A DNA stretch of 64,000 bases from Patellaria atrata CBS 101060 (Eukaryota > Ascomycota > Dothideomycetes > Patellariales > Patellariaceae), in contig MU006089.1 in NCBI GenBank assembly GCA_010093705.1, positions 1,847,561 through 1,911,560 of the forward strand, given 5' to 3'. Under the pieces are notes generated by a model. That model was not told the origin of the DNA, ran no database searches, and saw nothing but the letters and a program-made list of their open reading frames with translations. Shown one piece after another: positions 15,331-55,888 of the stretch. The first letter of the stretch is position 1. Each line of letters begins with the position of its first letter. Position numbers and translations under genes: made by a program.

Positions 15331-17655
15331 TCATACGATCCGTACTTCTTGCCACCTCTCGACAGACTCTTTGGTCATGGCTTCTCCGAACATGAAACCA
15401 TGAACATACGCTTCTCCGACAATTTGCCAGGCATCCCCTTTTGGCCTCAGAATATGAAAGACCCTACTGCCGTCGAGGAGCCAAATCTGGTCGCCCTCCC
15501 CCAACGCGATGGAACCGATCCCGACATATCCTTTTGCCGTTACGAAAGCCCGTTTGCCAATCCAAACTTCGCGGCTGATGGATATCCAGAACCCCTTGAA
15601 ACCGGAGAACCGTCCGTCAAATCGTGACGGGAGTCCGGCAAGAGTTTCCTCCTCCAAGTCCTCCCACTCTTCGTCCGGGTTCTGTGCCGGCATGTACCTT
15701 CTCCTAGATGCTCTCCAGGAGCTTTCGAGCGCACGTTCCTCACTGGGAATCGCCTCTAGCAGAAACTCCAATGGTTCTGACCACCCCTTGGAGGGTTCAG
15801 TGTCTACGTACTTATCACGCTGTAATAGAATCTCAGTAGCCGTTATAAGATGCCGAAGATGTTCCGTATCGGCGCCTTTTTTGGTCATGACTTTGAGTAG
15901 AATTTCGTACGTCCACCTTAGAAACCTGACCAGGTATTGTACCTGGGGAGGGAACTTCCTCCAGCCACCGTCGGCAACTAAAGCTCCAGTTAGAGCCTCC
16001 AGTGGTGTGCTCCCGTCGACATACGGATATGCTATATTGGGGTACAGATTCAGTAATGACGTTATCTCCTCAGAATCAGTCGCGTAAGGTGTGAAAAGTT
16101 CAAGCGGGGCGGAAATATGACGGACTGTGTCTATTCTCAATCCGAGGACTGACAACACACTTCCGATTACTCGAGGGCGCCAAAAAGGACGTCCGACGTA
16201 GGAGGCGTCGAATCGTTCGCTGAAGCTGCTAAATACCAACAGGCTCTCCAAGAGGGGGCGAGAGAAATCCGGCACCCAAGACGGCAAGGTCTTATAGGTT
16301 TTCTCCGCTGTATTTCCAAGGAATGATAGCATGGACAAGGTGGGAAGATTTTCGACAAGCTGAGTGGCAACGGAGAGATACAATTCTTCAACAGGCATAC
16401 GATAATCTACCCTGATCTCTGCTCCTCCCGGCTTCTCGAAAAATTTGGAAGTGACTCCTAACGCCGCGTAGATCTTGTCATGTGGGAGAGAAAGATGTCT
16501 CCAGCGAAGCGTCCCCAGCAATTGCTCTAAACAAAGCCACCACGAATGATCCCCTGCTCCCAATGCGAGCCCGTGGATTTGTCTAGAATAGCTGTTATCA
16601 TGTTCTCTTAGGCCTCGAAGTGATTCCAGGTCTCTAATCGCATATCCCGATGATTTCTCGGGCGAAAATGGATATACCCATGGACCCATTGTGCTCTTGT
16701 CCCATGCTGTCCAATGAAGAAGGAAGGCAACGTCGACGAAGAGTGACCAATTTAGAGTATACGGACCATACATGACAGTTATTTCTTTTCCCAAAGCTAT
16801 CTCCTGAGCAATCCAGCCCCGATAGAAGTAGCTACAGGTTAGATAGATGTTGCTGTATATATCCCACACGTATCTCCAGTTCTCAAAGCTGGGAAATTGC
16901 CCAACTCTACGCAAATTATAATCCAGCTCTTTGGATGCCTGCGGGGGCCAGTCCTCACGCCGTTGCATTTCAGCCTTCATCGCCGGAACTGAGATAGTGT
17001 GAACCCAGATAAAGTCTTTGACTTCTGCGTTGTCTGAGTCACATTCTCCCAACCACGCGATCACCCGTGTGGCTGAAGCATATATATTCCCCATAAGAGC
17101 TACTTGCTGAGCTCTTTCGTCCAGGTCCTCTTGATTTATGCAGATTGCGTCAACCCATAGCTTGGGATACGTTTGGGTTTGATTTTCCCCTCTTGTCTTG
17201 AATAATCGGCCCAGCGCATTATAGAGATTGAGGCGTATCCATATGAGCTTTCCATCGCAGAGAATGGTAGACCGCTGTGCGTCTCTTTCCCTATCTCGTT
17301 CGGTAGGCGGACGATTTTTGTAACCTGAAGTGTACCAATGGCAGCCCCAAGTATAGGACAACGCTTCGTAAGACAGCAGCTCCGTATCAAGATCCACGAT
17401 CTGTAGAGAGCACTCGAATCCGGGTGGAGACGAGCTCTCTTTTAGTTCAAGAAGACGAATATGGTTACTAGACGGGAGAGGTTGGTAGACATACCAATCA
17501 CCCTGAATACCCGCACCAGGCGGGGGTGAAGGTAAGGGAGAGGGAGTTGGAGGGGGAGGATGATACGGCTGGTCATGTGGATGGTCGGGTGGAATTATTG
17601 GGTGTGGGCTGGGGTTGAGGTCTGGTGAGGGTTGATATCTAAAAGATAATGCCAT
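15331..17655 (-). CDS. HET-domain protein (heterokaryon incompatibility type)
   Basis: Single exon, 774 residues. A proline-rich N-terminus (residues 10-50) precedes the HET domain, whose three usual blocks are visible: YEALSYTWG near residue 96, LWVDAICINQEDLDERAQQV near 165, and a downstream RGWIAQEIALG block. The C-terminal third has the SWVPDFSRP segment and a final KGYVGIGS / GDQIWLLDG / IVGEAYVHGFMFGEA module common in this family. HET domains trigger programmed cell death in incompatible fusions or act in NLR-like innate immunity. The trigger partner is not evident next door. It has the same C-terminal module as the HET gene at 53970, so they are paralogues. Confidence 0.92.
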   Translation of the reverse strand: MALSFRYQPSPDLNPSPHPIIPPDHPHDQPYHPPPPTPSPLPSPPPGAGIQGDWYVYQPLPSSNHIRLLELKESSSPPGFECSLQIVDLDTELLSYEALSYTWGCHWYTSGYKNRPPTERDRERDAQRSTILCDGKLIWIRLNLYNALGRLFKTRGENQTQTYPKLWVDAICINQEDLDERAQQVALMGNIYASATRVIAWLGECDSDNAEVKDFIWVHTISVPAMKAEMQRREDWPPQASKELDYNLRRVGQFPSFENWRYVWDIYSNIYLTCSYFYRGWIAQEIALGKEITVMYGPYTLNWSLFVDVAFLLHWTAWDKSTMGPWVYPFSPEKSSGYAIRDLESLRGLREHDNSYSRQIHGLALGAGDHSWWLCLEQLLGTLRWRHLSLPHDKIYAALGVTSKFFEKPGGAEIRVDYRMPVEELYLSVATQLVENLPTLSMLSFLGNTAEKTYKTLPSWVPDFSRPLLESLLVFSSFSERFDASYVGRPFWRPRVIGSVLSVLGLRIDTVRHISAPLELFTPYATDSEEITSLLNLYPNIAYPYVDGSTPLEALTGALVADGGWRKFPPQVQYLVRFLRWTYEILLKVMTKKGADTEHLRHLITATEILLQRDKYVDTEPSKGWSEPLEFLLEAIPSEERALESSWRASRRRYMPAQNPDEEWEDLEEETLAGLPSRFDGRFSGFKGFWISISREVWIGKRAFVTAKGYVGIGSIALGEGDQIWLLDGSRVFHILRPKGDAWQIVGEAYVHGFMFGEAMTKESVERWQEVRIV

Positions 17656-18881
17656 CCCGAAGCAACCTTACTTCGTTTTGATGGGGTGGATTCCTCTTTT
17701 CCAAAGCTTTGATTAGAAGTATCACTGGGCTCCACTATACAGGAATGGACTGAGCTGTACGAAGGACCTCGCTCATACAGTCTATGAAATCTCTAGGACG
17801 GGTGTTGTCGATCTTCCGAGGCCAGCATATGTTATGGAGAATTGAATGCAAGAAAAGGGCTAAAGGTTCATACATTTATTAATGGGACACGAACGAGAAC
17901 ATACTGGAAAACAAAATTCCAAGGTTAACGTGCTTGGGGAACAATATTGGTTACCGATATACTGGAGATCGTATACCGATAGTACACTGAATGCATTCCT
18001 TGGGGGCGAGTAAGATAGTTATGGGACGCCAACAAGGCTATCGACCTATGTGAGGTTGCCGTGCCGTCGTGAAAGTAGCAGACACCTGCAGAAGGGGCTT
18101 GATCTCCGCGCCTACTCAGCTGCGAGGCTGACCACGAACACAAGGCCTCGGCCTCTGAGATCTCTTCTTTGAAGTCAAGCTTTGTGTTTGCCCCATCGTC
18201 GTCTGAATTGATTTCTTTAAGTGGCGCGGAGAACAACCCTCACTCCAAATCAAGCTTATGAACTTTGCACATCAAGCATCGAGTCATTGCACAGCTGGAA
18301 CAGGACTCACGTTTGGTGACCCCAACCCGTATCGGCTGCTTCCCGTCTGATCCAAGGAGACCATGGAGCCTCGTTAAGCGCTGGGGTTCGGCGGCTAATT
18401 GTTTTAGATGACGCACTGTGCAACCGTTTGTGTGCAAACTTTGCGTGTGGTAAAGGTCAAGATTACAGTGCAAATGTTGGGGTTGACCGGATGCTTAGGA
18501 CATACCTATATGTACTATGTAATACACCAAACAAGTACGGCCCTTTTCCCGTTAACTCCCCAGTGGTGGATTATATTGCTAAGCCTTTGTACCTTTGCGG
18601 AATAACTACTGACCGGATCTTAAGCCCAGGAAATCGATAGGTTCCCGAATCGATATTTCTGGGTTACTCCTGGGCTTACTATCCCTTCGTCTGGCCCGAA
18701 CTTTTTCTACAGCAGAGTCAAGACTCTTCTTATATGAGCGTGAGATAAGCGGGAACGGCGTGGACGGAAACTCTACAACGTTCTATACAGGTGCGAGCAA
18801 GATCCAAGATCAACTGTTCTTTCAACGCTGTATAGATTTTCCCGTTCACCGTTTGTGTCATCTTGAGGGGTACTAAAACTG
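17656..18881. other. Intergenic region
   Basis: Promoter side of the HET gene and 3' flank of the polymerase gene. No supported gene. Confidence 0.55.
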
Positions 18882-21098
18882 TTATCCTCTGCCAAAGGCT
18901 AATTTCTGTTGTCCTTTCTCTACTCGGCTCGAACGTTCAGAAGAAGTCGAGCCAGCATTGTTGGAAGGTCTTCCTCTTCCACCTCCTTTTGCTTTAGCTA
19001 TTTTGGGTCTTTCCAAGCTTGAGTGACTCCGGCCTGCTTGTTCCCCTTGAATCCTCTCATTATCACGGAGTTCTTTCGCCAAAGCTTTGGCAAAGTGCCA
19101 GTCTTCATGCTCTTCCTTTTGATGGATTGGGATAAGTGTTTCATTCGAACAACGGGAGCAAAGAAACGATTCAATAGTGAATTGATGCTGCGGTGGTATG
19201 ACAGTTTTCGTAGAGACAGTAAGGGGAACAGTCGATGCTTTATTTCGCTTCCTTAAATTGAGGGTAGAACTAGATTTATGGTTCGGATGCTCAGATGAGA
19301 ACGGATGATGTACCGAACCACAAGGGTCATGTTGAGCAGACGGAGGTATATTGTCGGAAACCGCTTCTTTACTGTTAACTGGCGAACGAATAGGAGGGGA
19401 TAATTTCTTCATAGTCACTTGTTCGTGACCTTGGTCCGTAGTCGAATATTCGGAATCAGTATGGCCTTCTATTCCTGAACCAGGAGATGCATCAGTTGCA
19501 GAGAAGAATCTATCAATTTTGAGCTTTTCGTCCTCACTAGATCTATGGGAGACCAGTTTTCGTTTCTTGTAAGGATGCTCGTATTCTTGTCGATCCGAGA
19601 TATGAGATGCTTCGCGTTCGCTATCTAACATTGCTTTTGCTTCGTCTCCGCGAACTAAGAATCCCCCGATGCTTTGATTACCCGTCACGCCCTCCTCCCA
19701 ACCACCGACACTCAGACTCAGATTAGAGCAAGGCCATGCTCGGCCGTCAGCAACTATTTGAGCCAGGAGCAGTTTGGAAGAATTGAGTAGCATTTCTTCG
19801 GAAAGAGTTTTGCTCATCGGCAAAGGCGATTGCTTGGATCGTGTCTGTTGTCCAGTTCGGTAATGCAAATTAATAGTTTTGGGACGTCTCCTATTCTCTA
19901 ATACGCCCTCTTCTACGCACCTACTAAATATATCTGCTGCAAAAATCCGTAGCCAGCGAACCGCGGTTGGAAAGTCGTTTATAGAAGGTCTGAAACTCTT
20001 TGCTGAAAGCATAGATTTGATTGCAACGCGTGGATTAACCTCGCTTTTGTCCTCTCCTCGGATAGTGTTATAAAGCCATGTCCCAGTCTCTTCCCCCAAA
20101 TTCTTAATGAATTGTTCTAGTGAAACACCAAGGAGATCAGACACAGTATCTGTGCTAAACATAGCAACAACTTCGTCTCCAAGTTTACCACCCAGATTTC
20201 GAATCTTGGTGAATTTGAAACTTGAAAGAAAGTGTGATACGGCACGATTGCGTATGACAGTCTGTGCATTAGGCTTTTGATGTCCGGAGCCCAGTTTAGC
20301 AAGCATTTTGTTGCGTGCAATGCCGCTACTACATGTGTAGTGGAGAAAATCATATATGTTCTTCCGGACATTTCTTACTATCTCAGAACCTATCAATATC
20401 GCAATATCATCCCAGTCGGGATCATCATCTTCAGATGCCGTTATATCAAGATCGATCAATGCATCTGTCTGCCAATCTAGTGCTGTGGTAGTGGGCCGAG
20501 GAAGATTTTCGGTGGCATCGTCATAAGGGGGTGGGCCCCGAAGCTCCGGATAGCGTTCTAGCAGTAGGTCGTAAACATGTTTCGATAAATCCAAGAATAC
20601 CTCATCAATACTAGCCTTTTCTACCCGTTGTGTGTCAGGTAGGCTATCTTTAATTGTCTTCAAGATCTTTCGAGATTCCATTCGATAAGGATCCAAAGAG
20701 ACCTTGTGTGTACCCATGTGTTTCCATGCGTCCTCATGGTACGCCCATTTCTCATCGCCCTCTTTCCACGTTGCCACGTGCTGCATTATCAGTTCTGGAC
20801 ATATCTTTCTGGCTTCCGTGGCGGTGACGTGCCTCGTTAGGCCGTATTTCCTGGCGGGGTAATTAATAGCTATAAGACCTTGCCATTGCTGAACAGCTAG
20901 AGGTTGATCGGGTTGTACATCCAGTCGCACCATCTCACATTGTGCGTAGAACGCATCGAGGTCGATATGAGCAACAACGCGTAGCGGAGAGGCAGTTGAA
21001 TATTGTGATAGGAGGGACAGATGTTTATAGGTGAATCGTGACTTCTGACCACGCGTCAGGGAGCAATGGGAGGACTCGAGGAACGGTGGTGAAGACAT
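18882..21098 (-). CDS. RAD30: DNA polymerase eta (Rad30-type translesion polymerase)
   Basis: Single exon, 738 residues. Y-family catalytic blocks are intact: HIDLDAFYAQCE (metal ligand Asp46), PARKYGLTRH, and KASIDEVFLDLS (Asp165, Glu166). The little-finger domain follows (GTWLYNTIRGEDKSEV, SMLSAKSFRP). The C-terminal part has a UBZ zinc finger near residues 640-675: Cys647, Cys650, His659/His664 and His668 are candidate ligands. Hydrophobic PIP-like motifs occur at KIDRFF and QFTIESFL, plus a terminal QQKLAF. The enzyme copies past UV dimers, recruited by ubiquitinated PCNA. The gene is divergent from the GST-like gene at 21835. Naming as eta rather than iota/kappa rests on the UBZ and on the insert before SEIVRNVRKNI. 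Confidence 0.93.
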   Translation of the reverse strand: MSSPPFLESSHCSLTRGQKSRFTYKHLSLLSQYSTASPLRVVAHIDLDAFYAQCEMVRLDVQPDQPLAVQQWQGLIAINYPARKYGLTRHVTATEARKICPELIMQHVATWKEGDEKWAYHEDAWKHMGTHKVSLDPYRMESRKILKTIKDSLPDTQRVEKASIDEVFLDLSKHVYDLLLERYPELRGPPPYDDATENLPRPTTTALDWQTDALIDLDITASEDDDPDWDDIAILIGSEIVRNVRKNIYDFLHYTCSSGIARNKMLAKLGSGHQKPNAQTVIRNRAVSHFLSSFKFTKIRNLGGKLGDEVVAMFSTDTVSDLLGVSLEQFIKNLGEETGTWLYNTIRGEDKSEVNPRVAIKSMLSAKSFRPSINDFPTAVRWLRIFAADIFSRCVEEGVLENRRRPKTINLHYRTGQQTRSKQSPLPMSKTLSEEMLLNSSKLLLAQIVADGRAWPCSNLSLSVGGWEEGVTGNQSIGGFLVRGDEAKAMLDSEREASHISDRQEYEHPYKKRKLVSHRSSEDEKLKIDRFFSATDASPGSGIEGHTDSEYSTTDQGHEQVTMKKLSPPIRSPVNSKEAVSDNIPPSAQHDPCGSVHHPFSSEHPNHKSSSTLNLRKRNKASTVPLTVSTKTVIPPQHQFTIESFLCSRCSNETLIPIHQKEEHEDWHFAKALAKELRDNERIQGEQAGRSHSSLERPKIAKAKGGGRGRPSNNAGSTSSERSSRVEKGQQKLAFGRG

Positions 21099-21834
21099 TG
21101 TTGATGATATCGCAAGATATAAACATCATACATGGTTATGCCATGGATATATCATTGCTTTATGTAGGTGTACTGTACTTTGTACAGTATAAGTGGTGTT
21201 GTTAAACGACTGGGGCGCGTCAAGTTTTCGCCAAATCACGTGTGTGCTTCTCACACGACGACATCACCTTAGTGACAGTAGTGACATCAAGGAAAGAGGT
21301 GATTCACTCTAGCTCTTCCTGCGAAGGTAGATGCATTACTAATAAAACTAGGACTTACTCTGCACCCGTAAATATAAGTATTTGCTGTGCGTAACAGCAT
21401 ACTATGAAAATGGTGTTTTAGGATATCAGTTCAACCGCTCTGTAAGGTAGTTCTACTTCCGTGCAGAAGTACAGACTTGAGCGCGTCCTAGTCCCTACCT
21501 CGGTCATACCTTTCAACATGTTCATGGAGGACCTGATATCGAACCTGCTATACGCCAAGGACCCCTAGATGCGTTTTGAGGGGTAGGGTACAGTAACATT
21601 AAATGTGCCTTATGTGCCGAGGTACTTAGTCCCCAGTTATGCACCAAAAGCGAATAATTATGCAGTTCAAAGGGCGTGGTTGGTATTGAACAGCGCTTAT
21701 AACCCTCTCCACGCTGCATTCCAAAGTCGGAGAGTTGCTATAATTTGTACGGAGTACAGGTAACAGTGGTGAAATACAGAGGTAATTATCTTCACGTCGG
21801 AAACCATAGAGTACTGTGCCATACGTACTGTACC
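21099..21834. promoter_or_regulatory. Shared divergent promoter region (polymerase eta / GST-like gene)
   Basis: 736 bases separate the two divergent starts. The segment holds the palindrome at 21171-21189 and a TCACGTGT box at 21236-21243. No gene is seen inside. Confidence 0.5.
21171..21189. promoter_or_regulatory. Perfect inverted repeat TACTGTAC-TTT-GTACAGTA
   Basis: Eight-base arms match exactly around a three-base centre, 73-91 bases upstream of the polymerase eta start. Related TGTACTGTACA palindromes recur at 24372 and 32450. Confidence 0.55.
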
Positions 21835-27913: not shown

Positions 27914-30614
27914 TTATCCCAATCTCGCACGTTCCACTCCAACAAGTCGCTCAAAGGAAACCATTACCCACGCAAGAGCCTGGTCAACATCTCGCATATG
28001 ATCCCATCCAACAGGCCAAAGCCGAAGCATCCAACCTCCTGTTCCATACGCGCCGGTGCCGACCTTATAATTGCTTACGCCAGCGCCAAAATACTCGAGT
28101 ACGTTCCAGACTGGGGCGAGCAGATCCACAAGCGCAATTTGAAGGGGACCAGCTTCCGGGATGGAGTCATCGGTAGAGGCGAACGGGGAGAAGCCGGCTG
28201 GTACGTCCATCGCCGGGGCCGGACGATGTGCAAAGCTGAGAGCCTCCGTACGTGTGACGGAGTTGGCTGAACCCCAGGCGCGGCCGACAGACCGATTGGC
28301 TGCCATGGGGAAAAGCATCCAGCCAGCGAGGAACAGCATACAGGCGACTAGGATGAGTGGAGAACCGTAGGTCTTCCAGAAGGGGATGGGCTCTGCCTCC
28401 TTTACGATGTATACAGTGGTGGAGGGGGCTTCCACCACAAGGGCCGGATCTGTCTGGGTTGAGACGGACGCGACGGCAACGGAGCAGACCGTGGGCTCGT
28501 ACGAGAACACCTCCACGACGGGGGAGAGCTCGAGCTTCGGCGCAGCCGGAGCAGCAACGGTCTGCGTCCCGGATGAACTATACGGGACGGGATGGCCAAC
28601 GGGCTCGTACGACATGATCTCCTTGATACCGGAGAGAGAGATATCAATTACAGCCGGAACTGCAATTGTCTGCGTCCCACTTGAACGGTATGAGACGGAA
28701 TGCTCAACTGGCTCGTATGACATGATTTCCTTGATACCAGAGAGAGCGATATCTGGTACAGCCGAAGCTGCAATTGTCTGCGTCCCGGATGAATGGTACG
28801 AGACGGAACGCTCAACTGGCTCGTACGATATGATCTCCTTAATACCGGAGAGAGCGAGATCAGCTGCAACGGGAGCTGCAACTGTCTGCATCCCACATAA
28901 ACTGTAAGAGACATGGTGTTCAATTAGTTCAGAGGAAACAATTTCCTTGATCCCGGAGAATGCGAGATTGGTTACAGCAGGAACTAGATCTGCCTGCGTC
29001 CCAAACGAACTGTAAGAGACGGAGCGTTCAATGGGTTCAGAAGCAATCTCCTTGATACCGGTGAGAGTGAAAGCAGCTACAGCGGGAGCTGCAACTGTCT
29101 GCGTCCCGCATGAACTGTAGGAGACGGAATGTTCAACTGGTTCAGAAGCAATCTCCTTGATGCCGGAGAGAGCGGGAGCAGCTACGGCGGGAGCTGTAAC
29201 TGTCTGCGTCCCATATGAACGGTAAGAGACGGAGTCTTCAATGGGTTCAGAGGAGGCAATCTCCTTGATGCCGGAGAATGTGAGATTGGTTACAGCCGGA
29301 ACAGGTGCGACCTGCATACGTTCCGCATGTTCGTCTGTATCAGTCATGATCTCGTCCGCCAGTGATAGAGTCGGTATAGGTAATCCCGAAGCTTGCTGCA
29401 AGATAGCATACCGCTGGTGAATTTCTTCGAGATCAGCAGTGACTTTTTCAAGTTTCTCTTCCCGAGCGTTAAGTTCATGATAACACGCCTCGAGATTAGC
29501 GGTGAGAAGCCTAGAGTCTCTGTCCTGCGCGATGCGTTGGGTTTCGAGCATTTCGAACGCAGCGAGGTTCTCTCCGAGTCTAGCGATTTCCGCATCACGT
29601 TCATGGATTGCTACTTTGGCATCGTTTATGTCGCTTTGAAGTCGTTTCTCAGACACTTGAAGGTGATCAACCCGTACTCGGAGTTCATCGTGATGGATCG
29701 TCTTCTCATTGTTGGCTCGTCTCTCATTCTCAATTTGGGCCATGCACTGGTCGAGAAACTGTTTGGTCTCTTCATACGTCTTTTGTAAGTCTGTGAGTTT
29801 TTCCTTGGTCTCGCGAGCTTCGTTATGATGAACTGCGACATCTCGCTGGAGTCGCTGCGACAACTCCCTGTAGTCGCGGCTCTTCGTCCAGACTTCCTCG
29901 AACCTTTGTTCGCCTCGTTGAATTGATTCTTCGCTGAATTTAATTTGCTCTTGGAGTTCTTCCTTCTCGCCTTCGAGCTTAACAATTTCTACATGGAGCT
30001 CTTCGATCCGTTCATTGAGAGAGTAGTTTTCACCTTCAAGCTTCGTGATCTCTTGACCCGCTATCTGCAATTCTGTCTGCTCAGGAACCTCGCTCCCATC
30101 TTGATCATCCATGCCGTCTCTGTAGTGATCAGGATCCACGATTTGTATGTCTTGATTTATTGAGTACGCATCCTCCTCCTCGTCCATGCCGTCGCTTGAG
30201 CTGCCGCTGTCGCTTTTATTCTCGCCTGCGTTATCACCTGGTGCAATGTTCGAATTATTGAGCCTGGCTTCAATTTCATCTGATTCACCAGACAATACCA
30301 GCCATTTGTATCTAATAGCACGGCTGCCAGGTTGAGCGATTGGTCGATTATTTGCTTGAGCGAAGCTTGTTGGAGGTCCCTCGGGTCCGTCGAATCGCGC
30401 TGTACCGAAAACGGAATGATAAGCACAAAGACATAAAAAATCCCAACGACTCCAAAATCAACTTACCTTCTTGGTCAATGCCAAATTGGAATTTGGAGTT
30501 TCCAGCCGTTTCCGATTCGATTTCGTGGTAGTGCTCCTGGTCTTCTGCGTATGGACCTTGTTCGATCTCATCGCTTGGGCGCTTGATGTTTTTACCCTTG
30601 CCGTAATTACTCAT
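27914..30614 (-). CDS. Coiled-coil, tail-region membrane protein with eight tandem TQT repeats
   Basis: Two exons on the minus strand, 30614-30467 and 30399-27914, with a 67-bp intron; 877 residues. The intron was placed from a clean GTAAGT donor and the open continuation (ARFDGPEGPPTSF). Residues 1-155 are acidic and disordered. Residues about 159-383 form a long heptad-rich coiled coil (EITKLEGENYSLNERIEEL). Residues about 417-702 are eight units of 35-36 residues with consensus LSGIKEI-x-S-x-EPVE-x-SVSY-x-S-x-GTQTVAAPAV; the last is degenerate. One TM segment lies near 730 (LILVACMLFLAGWMLFP), then about 125 residues with more hydrophobic patches. TQT is the core of the dynein light chain (LC8) binding motif, so the array could be a multivalent LC8 platform tethered to a membrane. 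The SxI..I...EP pattern also recalls repeats of cortical ApsA/Num1 proteins. No PH domain is present. Confidence 0.85.
28442..29299 (-). repeat. Coding tandem repeat, eight units of 105-108 bp
   Basis: In-frame tandem repeat encoding the TQT units. Successive GIKEI blocks are 36, 35, 35, 36, 36 and 36 residues apart. Units 5-7 are the most alike (all with the SYEPV word, two of them IMSYEPV), units 1-4 form a second group (AS-SEP words), and unit 8 is degenerate. This pattern suggests stepwise duplication with partial homogenisation. Confidence 0.95.
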
Positions 30615-46443: not shown

Positions 46444-46738
46444 AGACGTTTGCATATCGAAGATAATACTACTTCACTAGCACACGAGAATCATGCTAAA
46501 CTAAGTATTCAATGTTTGTATAGATATTATGTCGTTGAAAGATAATAATATACAAACATTCGTCGTCTCGTGATTGAAAGCTGTGAATGGTGCAGTGTTA
46601 CCCCGCCAACAATCGGGCTAGCCCAAAGCGGTTAAATGTATACACCTAAATGTCTTCCACTCAACTTCTACACTTTCATCACTCTCTTTTATCCAGACTC
46701 CGAGACCGCAATTGGAGTCCCACAATACACTTGTTGAT

Positions 46739-48640
46739 ATGCCTCGCAAACAAGTCTACGGAAAACGTGCCAGAACATTCGCCTACACCTCTCTCACTCC
46801 ACTGGGGGATTGGTCCAGTCCCGGCAAGTTGCCGAATGAAGATGAAAAAGTGCAGGATATCATCAAAGAGTTTGGTGCACTATCGGTGCAGCCAGATAAT
46901 AAACCAGACAAAGCTAGGGAAGAGAAGACAAGGAGGGTTCTAAAGGCGAAGGATACAAATATTCAGCCATGCTTGGATAAAGGCAAAAAGGATGGGAAGC
47001 TTAAGAAGAATACTATTTCCGTAGAAGAGGTTATTATTGTCCAAGGAAAGAATATAGATATAGAATCTTCTCATGATCAGAAAGGCGAGAATGAAGAAAA
47101 GAGTAAGGAGAAAAAGAATGGAGGACAGCATTGCGTAAGCCGAAAGTCCAAGGCATCCTGTAACAATACTATCGAGGAACAAGAGGGAGAGACAATCGCC
47201 GTAGCTCCAGATTTAAAGCAATCCGAAAAGAAGCCGCCATTACGGACGCCTGTCAGAAAATCTCAAGGCTCAACTCTCCCACCCCTTTCTAGACCAGACG
47301 ATCCTCTGACGAGGTATACCACTCCGTTACTAGACCTCTGCCGCGATCAAAAGGCAAGAATATGCCCACTACCATTTGCGGAGTCTCTCGCTGAGTTCGA
47401 GGATACAGTTCAGGTAGTCAAGCTTGCTGAAGCATCCTTTAGCGAGGTCTACCGACTATCAACTAAGGCACACATCGGGACAAAGTACGAAGGCGTCTGG
47501 AAACTGATGGCCTTAAAACCACCTCCCGAATGTATACCGAAAGATTTTTCAGAAAAGGAGGAGGACAAACTAGCATACATGAGTGCGGTGGATAATGTTC
47601 TCTCAGAGTTACGGCTGCTGAATCATATGACGGAAGTCCCTGGTTTTACCGTATTTCGAGATCTACGTGTCTTTCTGGGTCCACCCCCGAAACCGTTTGT
47701 GAGCGCCTGGAGAGCATACAACAAAGCGCAGCCGAAAGGAAAGAAGAGCGAGTTCCCAGATCCAGGAAAAAAGGGGAGCTACGGCCTAGACCAACTGTGG
47801 ATTGCCATCGAGATGGGAGACGCAGGCACAGACTTGGAGAAGATCCTCGAAAGAGGAAACAAACTCAGCGTATGGCAAGCATGGGACATCTTCTGGGGGG
47901 TAGCCATCGCCGTTGGCAAGGGGGAAGAAATAGCAGAGTTCGAGCACCGTGATCTCCACCTCGGAAATATATGTATCCGCTCGCCCAATCCATCAAACTC
48001 TCTCCATCCCAGCGATTCCATCAACTCTTCCCTCACTCTCGGCGCTACAGGTCTCAGTGTAACCATCATCGACTACACACTCTCCCGCGCTAAAATGCGA
48101 CCTTCGCGCCCCGACTCCTCCACGGATGCTGAGCAGATAGCGTTCTACCCCCTCTCCACCGACCCCGCTATTTTCGAAGGCGACGCCGCGGAAAACTACC
48201 AGTACGCGATGTACCGGCACATGCGCTCTCTCTTCCTCACCTCATCCGCCCTCACTACGCTCAACGGGCGCAAACTCAAGGCTGCAGAAGCGAAGAAGTC
48301 GTGGCGGGAGTTCTGTCCCGGCACGAATCTCGTATGGTTGCATTTCGTGCTCGACCAGTTGTTAGCGAATCTTGTGCCTGTGGATACGGACGAGTTGGAC
48401 ATTACTATACAGGAGAAGGGAAGAGAGTTGCATAAACGATTGAGGGAATTACAAGCATGGCTTGAACTGCAGAACCTTGGTGTCGAGGGTGGGTTGAGGG
48501 GCGCGGCGGATTTGGTGGGTGTCGCGGTTGAGGAGGGGTGGTTGACTGCTGAGGATGTGATTGGGGAGGTGGAGGGAGATGGTGTGAGGAGCGAGGGGAA
48601 GAGGAAGAGGAGGCGGCGGAGGATTGAGAAGGTGGAGTGA
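46739..48640 (+). CDS. Haspin-type serine/threonine protein kinase
   Basis: Single exon, 633 residues; ATG 46739 gives MPRKQVYGKRARTFAY, like other fungal haspins. Residues 1-210 are charged and disordered. The divergent kinase domain includes the glycine-loop region KLAEASFSEVYRL near 230, the catalytic loop FEHRDLHLGNIC near 402, and the haspin-specific IIDYTLSR near 443 in place of DFG. The end has the helical FVLDQLLANL block. Haspin phosphorylates histone H3 Thr3 and helps place Aurora B at centromeres. The very C-terminus is basic (KRKRRRRRIEK), a probable nuclear signal. No introns were needed, unusual among its neighbours. Confidence 0.93.
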   Translation: MPRKQVYGKRARTFAYTSLTPLGDWSSPGKLPNEDEKVQDIIKEFGALSVQPDNKPDKAREEKTRRVLKAKDTNIQPCLDKGKKDGKLKKNTISVEEVIIVQGKNIDIESSHDQKGENEEKSKEKKNGGQHCVSRKSKASCNNTIEEQEGETIAVAPDLKQSEKKPPLRTPVRKSQGSTLPPLSRPDDPLTRYTTPLLDLCRDQKARICPLPFAESLAEFEDTVQVVKLAEASFSEVYRLSTKAHIGTKYEGVWKLMALKPPPECIPKDFSEKEEDKLAYMSAVDNVLSELRLLNHMTEVPGFTVFRDLRVFLGPPPKPFVSAWRAYNKAQPKGKKSEFPDPGKKGSYGLDQLWIAIEMGDAGTDLEKILERGNKLSVWQAWDIFWGVAIAVGKGEEIAEFEHRDLHLGNICIRSPNPSNSLHPSDSINSSLTLGATGLSVTIIDYTLSRAKMRPSRPDSSTDAEQIAFYPLSTDPAIFEGDAAENYQYAMYRHMRSLFLTSSALTTLNGRKLKAAEAKKSWREFCPGTNLVWLHFVLDQLLANLVPVDTDELDITIQEKGRELHKRLRELQAWLELQNLGVEGGLRGAADLVGVAVEEGWLTAEDVIGEVEGDGVRSEGKRKRRRRRIEKVE

Positions 48641-52689: not shown

Positions 52690-53969
52690 ACAGACTCGAA
52701 GGATACATAATACATCCGTTCTTGGTGGAAATACTAAGCTGGTATTGACGAGAGAGTGTTATTGCAACCTAAACAATGATCAAGTGTCTACACTCTTGTG
52801 AAGGGGATATATGGTTTTGTTGTATGTCTTTCTGGTATTCTCTAAATGGTTCTAAGGTGGTACTAATATCAAAGCAGGCCACCACCAAGATAGGTACCGG
52901 AGTTAATCGGTAGCCTCAATATAGTGAAAGATCAATGGTGCGTGGATTTTTTTCAGATAATAGTCACCGGATACACCCAGCCCCCATGGCTTAGTCACAA
53001 ACGATATAAACACGAATCTTCCCATAACACTATATCATGAATCTTAGGTAACATGGTCTCAACAATACCTCTAAAACCGCATGATTCCTTTTTCCGCTAC
53101 ACTTTTGCGTAATTGTACATTTAGGAGATGTCATTTGACAAAGAGCAACAAACATTGAGTGTTCTCCGGGGAAGTTTTTGGCCTTGGTGAATGGGCAAGC
53201 TTCGTTATCCTCATCGTCTCTCATCTGAGTTGGTCTAACAAGACGACACTGGCGTCTGCTAGTCCTTGCACCTAAGGTAAAAAAATGTGTGAGTTGAGGT
53301 TGGACTGTAGGAGGTGCGTATAACTTGTCCTTGCAAAACTAGAGAAGTAAGAATTATCCAAATGTCAACATACCTATATGATATTTCTATTCAATGCATT
53401 CTCGTCGGCATCTCATTGTACAATCCGGTATGCAGAATCTATCTCCGGCTTCGCGTAGGTCTGTGAGCTGCACCTCGTTCAAGACGCAAGGCCGAAAACT
53501 TTACGCTCCATCCAGACCATCATGCAGTATTCCCAAACGAACAGTTCTCAGCCTATGCGTGGGCCAATTATCAGAACTGGAATTACCCTTTCACCGGTCT
53601 TTGCTGCAGCTCAAAAGATGAAAGATGGCACCAAAGCGCGCGGGGCTATTGTGTCGATCAGCCTTGTCTATGGGTCTCCAATTTGCAACTTTTCTTACCT
53701 GCAGTTGTCCTAAAGGATGTACCTGTCCCGGTTGGAAGGGGTAGTCGAGGAGCGCCTCCAGCCTGGGCGTTAAACTAGAAAATCAACTATAGTAACCGCC
53801 GATATGCGGCTATAACTGTACACAAAATACTATACTGAGCACCCCCCTAAAAAGATCCACAAACGTGAGTACTTCATTTGAATGGTACAGCCGAATCCAT
53901 ACTCCTTTCCGCGCAACGTACTGCTAGCGTACTGTATGCTCTCTCGGGTCATCTGCAGGGAGGGTAGAC
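52690..53969. other. Intergenic region
   Basis: 1.3 kb spacer upstream of a HET gene. Nothing else could be supported. Confidence 0.5.
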
Positions 53970-55888
53970 ATGGATTTGTTCCAATATACGGAGCTTCCAA
54001 ATTCTCAGAGCATCCGGATCCTCACACTTCATCCGGGATCGTACCATGACGAGATAACATGTTCCCTCTCGGTATCCCAACTCGACAATCTGGAGAAATA
54101 TGAAGCTATCTCATACACTTGGGGTGATGCCAAGATAGCGGAAGAGATTTCGGTTGGTGATTCCAGACTGGCTATCACTACGAATCTAATCGGAGCTCTG
54201 CGTCGTTTTAGACTAGAAGACCGGGATAGAAAGCTATGGGCAGACGCGATCTGCATCAATCAACATAATCTTTCGGAGAGAAGTCAACAAGTTGGGATCA
54301 TGAGAGATATATTCCAAAAGGCATCAAGAACATTTGTCTGGCTTGGTGAAGAGTCCCCGTCAGATCTGCCACCAATTGAAGCAATAAAGAGAATTGAAGA
54401 AGCAATCGCCGAGAAAATAAAGGGAATTAAACGAGATTATATTGAAGAAGCGATAGATAAGGAAAGTACACAAGTCATCAAACGAATACTTAGCTTCATC
54501 CCAGCCGAGAAAACATTGTTTACATCCGTATTGACTGACGGCAGTCTCAGTCCATCCGAATCCTATAACTCAACAATGAGCTTAAGGGAAGCACCCAAAC
54601 ATGAATCAGATTTGCCCCCTCATGCTTCAACCAGTAAAAGTCCACTTACCATACCTCTCTTTACGTTGTTCAGCCGCCCATGGTTTGAACATGCATGGGT
54701 CATGCAAGAAGTTTCCATGAGTTCCGAATTACTTATGCATCATGGGCGTTTTCAGTCCCACTGGAATCTCTTCGCTCAAGGTGCAAATTGTATCCTCAAC
54801 CATCCTGCTTGGCCAGTTTCCAGGGGAAGAGGAGGTTTCTTGTCTACCGCATGTATCAATACTAGTTTACATGCCTACGCCCGACAACAAATTAGTACCG
54901 TTGCAAGATGCGATCTTAGCCTCCTTTTAGTTATGATGAGAGAAAATACCAAGGCAACAGATCCCCGGGACAAGGTCTTTTCGCTCCTCGGCCTTGTTAA
55001 GGAACAATTTCAGCAACAAATACCAATCGATTACGCCGCTCGAGTTGAAACAGTCTATACTCAAGCGACCATTTCTGCCCTTACCCCTAATACTGGTTTT
55101 CATATACTGCGTGCTGCTGGACAGAAGAACTTGAAAAACACACATTTGCCGCTACCATCATGGATCCCAGATTACTCTCTTGTAAATCAAGGAATACTGG
55201 GATTTGGGTGGAAGCCATATACTGCTGGGGGAACTGAACCTCCTTTATTCTGGCATGAAAAAGATATTTCCGTGTTGGGAATGTACGGCAGATTATGCGG
55301 TAGGGTTAACGATATGATACCCCCTAGGGGCGACAGGGACTGGGATCCAAAAGATAAATACTCTTTCTCAAACCTGGATGCACAACATTGGCAAAAGTCC
55401 TACCATTCGTATTCGATAAAAATCATATATACTTAGTTGAGAACATGGATGGTGTCTATTAGAGGTTAATGATCTGCGATATTAGTACGTCTGGAACGCC
55501 TCAGGGGCTTCTTTGGACGCAGAAGGCTCAGGACGTTTACAGAAACTTGTATCTTGACAATCGCGTTAGTGACAGTCACATGACCTCAAACAATTTATCG
55601 GATGACCCCGACGTCAGAGGAGCACAACTTCAATATAGATTCGATTATAGGCCAGATGGACTCTGTAATAATCTGTGTTGGTGCGATTCGGGGCATCTGG
55701 GATGGGTGCCCCTGGATACTCAAGTTGGCGATTATTGGGTACTCTTCAAAGGCGCGCCCAAGCCATTCATATTGAGGAAAAATGAGGATGGACATATGAT
55801 CTTGATCGGAGAGGCTTATATTCACGGTGTAATGTGGGGAGAGGCGCTAGTTGAAGGGTTGGAATGGGATACAATTACGCTTCATTGA
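53970..55888 (+). CDS. HET-domain protein (second copy)
   Basis: Two exons by my reading, 53970-55408 and 55465-55888, about 620 residues; the intron border is uncertain (donor GTATTC, acceptor GAG). HET blocks are YEAISYTWG at residues 44-52, LWADAICINQHNLSERSQQVG at 89-109 and HAWVMQEVSMSSELLMHHG further on. The C-terminal module (DSGHLGWVPLDTQVGDYW, IGEAYIHGVMWGEA) parallels the end of the HET gene at 15331. It is expected to act in allorecognition or immune-like cell death. The linker between the first and second halves of the domain (ERSQQ to SRPWFEHAW) is long and rich in Glu/Lys. If the intron is wrong, the protein would stop at about 488 residues. Confidence 0.85.

Follow-up and report, generated by a model that had tools for sequence, protein, structure and literature searches.

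Does the repeat array encoded on the minus strand of the window (the whole 64,000-nucleotide stretch of contig MU006089.1 analyzed here) form a platform for the dynein light chain LC8, as an earlier reading made from the letters alone (henceforth, the sequence-only reading) proposed from the Thr-Gln-Thr (TQT) cores of its units? The array belongs to a two-exon gene (30614-27914, minus strand, with a splice predicted from signals and frame) whose 877-residue product consists, in order, of an acidic N-terminus (residues 1-155), a predicted coiled coil (~155-392), eight repeat units (417-702), a hydrophobic segment (~728-750), and a 127-residue tail. Comparison with known LC8 ligands suggests that the LC8 reading is weakened, although not refuted, and doubtful for most of the units; binding is possible, mainly through the last unit and with the help of avidity. 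The account that we favor, and to which we give not quite an even chance, is that the protein is a lineage-specific single-pass membrane tether in which the repeats form a beta-rich stalk or a repeated docking surface.

The position of the array (28442..29299), its division into eight units of 35-36 residues, and its placement between a coiled coil and a membrane segment were borne out, and the strand is the minus strand. As read directly from the translation, six cores are TQT, the third is TQA, and the fourth is MQT, just as had been described. The cores begin at residues 447 (unit 1, YGTQTV, 29201..29209), 482 (unit 2, CGTQTV, 29096..29104), 517 (unit 3, FGTQAD, 28991..28999), 553 (unit 4, CGMQTV, 28883..28891), 589 (unit 5, SGTQTI, 28775..28783), 625 (unit 6, SGTQTI, 28667..28675), 661 (unit 7, SGTQTV, 28559..28567), and 697 (unit 8, VSTQTD, 28451..28459), that is, with a pitch of 35, 35, 36, 36, 36, 36, and 36 residues. 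The generalization that every unit ends in a GTQTV-type core thus holds for the array at large but fails for unit 8. At the DNA level, Tandem Repeats Finder reports a repeat of 108 bp in 7.1 copies with 74% matches or, alternatively, of 216 bp in 3.2 copies with 75%. The number of TQT triplets is beyond chance (mean 0.10 and maximum 3 in 20,000 shuffles of the protein), and none occurs in the 580 residues outside positions 416-712. Because the units arose by duplication, however, TQT is a single inherited feature copied eight times, so that the relevant question is not how frequent the triplet is but whether it has been retained more faithfully than other parts of the unit.

With respect to selection, amino-acid differences per site (pN) are fewer than silent differences per site (pS) in 28 of the 28 unit pairs, with pN/pS between 0.14 and 0.75 in 27 pairs and not computable in one, which indicates that the protein sequence is constrained. 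This finding, together with a reading frame that stays open throughout the eight units, makes it highly improbable that the array is a neutral minisatellite tolerated as filler in a young orphan gene, notwithstanding the 108-bp DNA repeat, the alteration of two of the eight cores (units 3 and 4), and the failure to find relatives for residues 390-877, all of which such filler would explain. Parsimony counts across units 1-7 show where the constraint lies: the GIKEI block has undergone no amino-acid and seven silent changes, S.EP one and seven, SVSY four and five, TQT two and one, and the other 20 codons 45 and 19. Eleven of the 34 triplets, TQT itself included, have no more amino-acid changes than TQT. 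The best-protected block in units 1-7 is GIKEI, not TQT, and, as judged by eye from the alignment of these units, hydrophobic residues are exchanged conservatively at fixed columns.

Several observations weigh against this ranking. Once unit 8 is included, only 3 of the 34 triplets (again counting TQT) have as few amino-acid changes as TQT or fewer, and GIKEI, which reads PVVEV in that unit, takes six. Moreover, the contrast between GIKEI and TQT rests on few events, silent changes in the TQT codons being few as well, and the tree of the units is poorly supported (bootstraps 15-67). Unit 8 is the most diverged (42% identity to unit 1) and still keeps its TQT, as would be expected if the triplet mattered for LC8; with 17 of its 36 positions matching the consensus of the other units, a given triplet would be kept by chance with a probability of 0.10, so that this retention alone is not significant. 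The evidence on TQT retention relative to the rest of the unit is mixed.

The same counts bear on the proposal that the array docks some other partner, with GIKEIxSxEPxExSVSY as the linear motif and TQT as a mere flank. Across units 1-7, it is in GIKEI and S.EP that silent changes most outnumber amino-acid changes, but unit 8 has lost GIKEI, and a Pfam scan of the 847-codon open frame yields no domain above the cut-off; we consider this proposal quite unlikely. To our knowledge, no known motif matches this pattern, although no motif library was searched.

As for LC8 itself, the published binding data set a demanding standard. TQT is insufficient, given that many anchor-containing peptides failed to bind in isothermal titration calorimetry (ITC); hydrophobic residues are poorly accommodated at position +2, and large residues are favored at -3 (PMC6607443). 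In the array, position +2 is V or I in six of the eight units (1, 2, 4, 5, 6, and 7), position -3 is small in three, and the anchor itself is broken in units 3 (TQA) and 4 (MQT); only unit 8 complies with every LC8 flank rule that we coded. Among the usable tested peptides, V or I at +2 occurs in none of 24 binders and in 4 of 29 non-binders (SH3RF2, QSER1, DAZL, and EIF3C, two of which have a TQT anchor), a difference that is not significant (Fisher p 0.12). From -3 to +2, unit 7 has the same residues as SH3RF2, a non-binder by ITC (PMC6607443).

These rules were complemented by a naive binder/non-binder score built from the peptides available in PMC6607443 (Tables 1-2), PMC5963919 (Table 2), and PMC3078936, comprising 24 binders and 29 non-binders, with 4 weak binders scored apart. 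Left out were, from Table 1 of PMC6607443, a duplicate of the binder MUC4 with an added Asp and 11 of the 31 non-binder rows (a shifted BSN, a repeated entry for SCRN2, and nine that lacked a usable Q anchor or register); from Table 2, four rows from viruses or phages as well as ILK; and, from PMC5963919, the weak QT3p (TMT). Separation is moderate (leave-one-out area under the curve 0.73). Units 1, 6, and 8 rank midway among the binders, each outscoring 12 of the 24 and outscored by 6-9 of the 29 non-binders; units 2, 3, 4, 5, and 7 rank with the non-binders, outscoring 0-5 of the 24 binders and outscored by 16-26 of the 29 non-binders. The KVQTE site in the Nup159 of the same genome scored -2.6, like the non-binders, so that the score may be a poor guide to fungal sites. 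Taken together with the residues at +2 and -3, these results do not support LC8 binding by most of the units.

Given the singular status of unit 8, it could be asked whether the protein is a one-site LC8 client, in which this membrane-adjoining unit (VSTQTD) binds and units 1-7 are a spacer drifted from the same founder. Unit 8 outscores 12 of the 24 binders, obeys the coded flank rules, and stands apart from the rest as the most diverged copy, but 6 of the 29 non-binders outscore it in turn, and the KMT2C peptide VSVSTQTA, whose left flank is almost identical, does not bind (PMC6607443). The chances of such a client appear slim.

The fuller LC8 alternative is a scaffold of extended chains paired by a parallel coiled coil, in which LC8 dimers would bridge pairs of TQT cores and build a ladder at the membrane. 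Six TQT cores at a regular pitch are what such a ladder calls for, and the literature offers ways around poor flanks: dimerization of a peptide raised LC8 affinity 80-fold and over 500-fold, and the Bmf peptide EDKATQTL binds at 0.75 µM despite L at +2 (PMC3078936), which shows that a hydrophobic residue there can be tolerated. Furthermore, weak motifs can suffice in an array, as six dASCIZ peptides bind at 7-20 µM and the whole region at 1.4 µM (PMC5963919). By analogy, avidity conferred by the coiled coil directly upstream of the array could rescue weak LC8 sites. The gap between 10-residue motifs at a pitch of 35-36 is ~25-26 residues; linkers of 30 and 41 residues gave heterogeneous LC8 complexes, linkers of 6 and 9 did not, and those of 12-16 may already do so (PMC10046861). 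The partner is at hand: a gene on contig C7 with seven exons (spliced by eye, each splice with GT and AG) encodes a complete 94-residue LC8, which among solved structures best matches dynein light chain 2 (3p8m, E 4.5e-41). The dynein intermediate chain was sought through Pfam PF11540 without a match in this genome or in any of 14 control genomes, so that this result is uninformative. Against the ladder stand the unfavorable +2 residues, the identity of unit 7 to a tested non-binder, the two broken anchors, and the composition of the array, which a charge-hydropathy plot places on the folded side; on balance we regard the ladder as rather unlikely.

This composition likewise fails to support the sequence-only description of the array as a disordered stretch, even if the tests are not decisive. 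AlphaFold2 (AF2) gives the array beta structure; AF2 is unreliable on repeats and has a known bias toward a beta-helix-like fold for them, whereas AlphaFold3 is reported to be less prone to false confidence (PMC11795689). Further points count against a folded stalk: the charge-hydropathy test is crude, none of 40 solved structures compared with Foldseek reaches E<=0.001 (the best has 0.77), and repeats can attain a high Z-score through a common arrangement alone. In particular, the beta-helix core of SufB/SufD has 6% identity to the array, and the shared shape, of a kind to which AF2 is biased, shows no function.

Under the membrane-tether account that we favor, the coiled coil would dimerize the protein and the C-terminal hydrophobic helix would anchor it in a membrane; in the simplest topology, all that precedes the helix would be cytosolic, because the N-terminus is hydrophilic and unlike a signal peptide. 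Between coiled coil and anchor lies the array, built as a minisatellite, whose eight units are hydrophobic, prone to beta structure, and under selection at the protein level; here the protected entity is probably the whole GIKEI-x-S-x-EP...SVSY...GTQT[VI] unit rather than the TQT triplet alone. TQT would then be part of one strand of the unit, and the V or I that follows, so ill-suited to LC8, might be a buried core position. A bolder version, which we deem unlikely, is that the array is a folded eight-coil beta-solenoid stalk, grown by 108-bp amplification in an orphan gene, in which stacked TQT triplets form a Thr/Gln ladder on one face; it would be a new structural domain soon after its birth and not an LC8 array.

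The components of this architecture were delineated as follows, all on the minus strand. Predicted exon 1 (30467..30614) starts with an ATG at 30614 and encodes residues 1-49 and the first base of codon 50; a GTAAGT donor from 30466 opens a predicted 67-bp intron (30400..30466, GTAAGT...TACAG), removal of which keeps the frame, so that the joined frame is open to its end. Exon 2 (27914..30399) supplies the remainder of codon 50 through residue 877 and the stop and overlaps the 847-codon frame, open from stop to stop at 30457-27914; the entry for this protein in the protein database (P0002) has 757 amino acids and begins at a later Met than predicted exon 1. The coiled coil (29372..30085) is predicted from a heptad core excess of 0.12-0.70 in windows of 28, a content of charged residues and Gln of 36-57% with few Pro, and a weak Pfam match to a coiled-coil rod (E=0.0014; 18 bits, where the cut-off is 100). 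The predicted transmembrane segment (28298..28366) reaches a mean Kyte-Doolittle value of 2.32 over 19 residues and is helical in low-confidence models; the flanking charges (two K/R and two D/E before the helix, two and none after it) do not settle the topology. The tail (residues 751-877, 27917..28297) has no Pfam domain. On the opposite strand, a 178-codon frame (28371-28907, plus) is open over part of the array; it is probably a by-product of the repeats, without evidence of a gene.

KASH/nesprin-like tethers likewise have a coiled coil and, after it, a single hydrophobic segment near the C-terminus, and the genome has two SUN-domain matches above the cut-off. KASH proteins have a short luminal tail with a PPPX-type end. 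The tail found here, with its 127 residues and its ERARLG terminus, led us to reject membership in this family.

With regard to origin, residues 390-877 retrieved only their own entry from 5.8 billion proteins (7,998 candidates scored, E up to 1e-3), as did residues 680-877 (1,837 candidates scored, E up to 1), in searches that left out residues 1-389 (the N-terminus and coiled coil), required matches to have 5-residue words in common with the query and 0.55-1.75 times its length, and could hence be escaped by fast-evolving or much shorter relatives. The genome itself contains no second copy at protein E<=0.1 (7 candidates scored) or DNA E<=0.001. By way of control, DNA polymerase eta (Rad30; 18882-21125, minus) from the same window has 2,592 relatives at E<=1e-20, of which the best non-self matches among the 120 listed share 59-60% identity over the full length and up to 73% over two thirds. 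The presence of the Dothideomycetes Lasiodiplodia theobromae and Lophium mytilinum among the best-named sources indicates that the database holds fungi of this class. To judge from these comparisons, a normally conserved relative of the array protein would probably have been detected, and the window probably belongs to a Dothideomycete lineage that is rather isolated.

Two known LC8 partners invite comparison, of which the yeast nucleoporin Nup159 is not known to have a membrane segment. It resembles the present protein in having several QT-type sites (five LC8 sites in yeast) near a coiled coil, but these sites are N-terminal of the predicted coiled coil, in contrast to the array, which is C-terminal of it; two Nup159 chains are bound by five LC8 dimers (PMC3995210, PMC5963919). 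The Nup159 of this genome is a separate gene (locus L009 on contig C18). Its long frame, with exons partly resolved, has four QT-like places by a loose pattern, only one of which (GKVQTE) looks LC8-like. ASCIZ/ATMIN also combines many TQT cores with individually weak sites and uses one altered core (TMT). Unlike the membrane protein described here, however, it is a zinc-finger transcription factor; its seven motifs in the fly vary in sequence and linker length, whereas the units here are near-identical copies; and its LC8-binding region has been measured to be flexible and disordered (PMC10046861, PMC5963919).

No description of a membrane-anchored fungal LC8 array was found among the best-ranked titles of the literature searched. 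If LC8 binds, a fungus would turn out to have an LC8 ladder tethered to a membrane; if the array folds, it would exemplify how TQT counts can mislead and would make it possible to follow the formation of a repeat domain within an orphan gene. Either way, TQT triplets duplicated in tandem should not be taken as so many independent signs of LC8 binding.

Elsewhere in the window, a Haspin-like kinase domain (Pfam PF12330, E 4.9e-37) is encoded in a single open frame on the plus strand (46622-48640), and two genes contain heterokaryon-incompatibility (HET) domains (15331-17667, minus; 53928-55436, plus).
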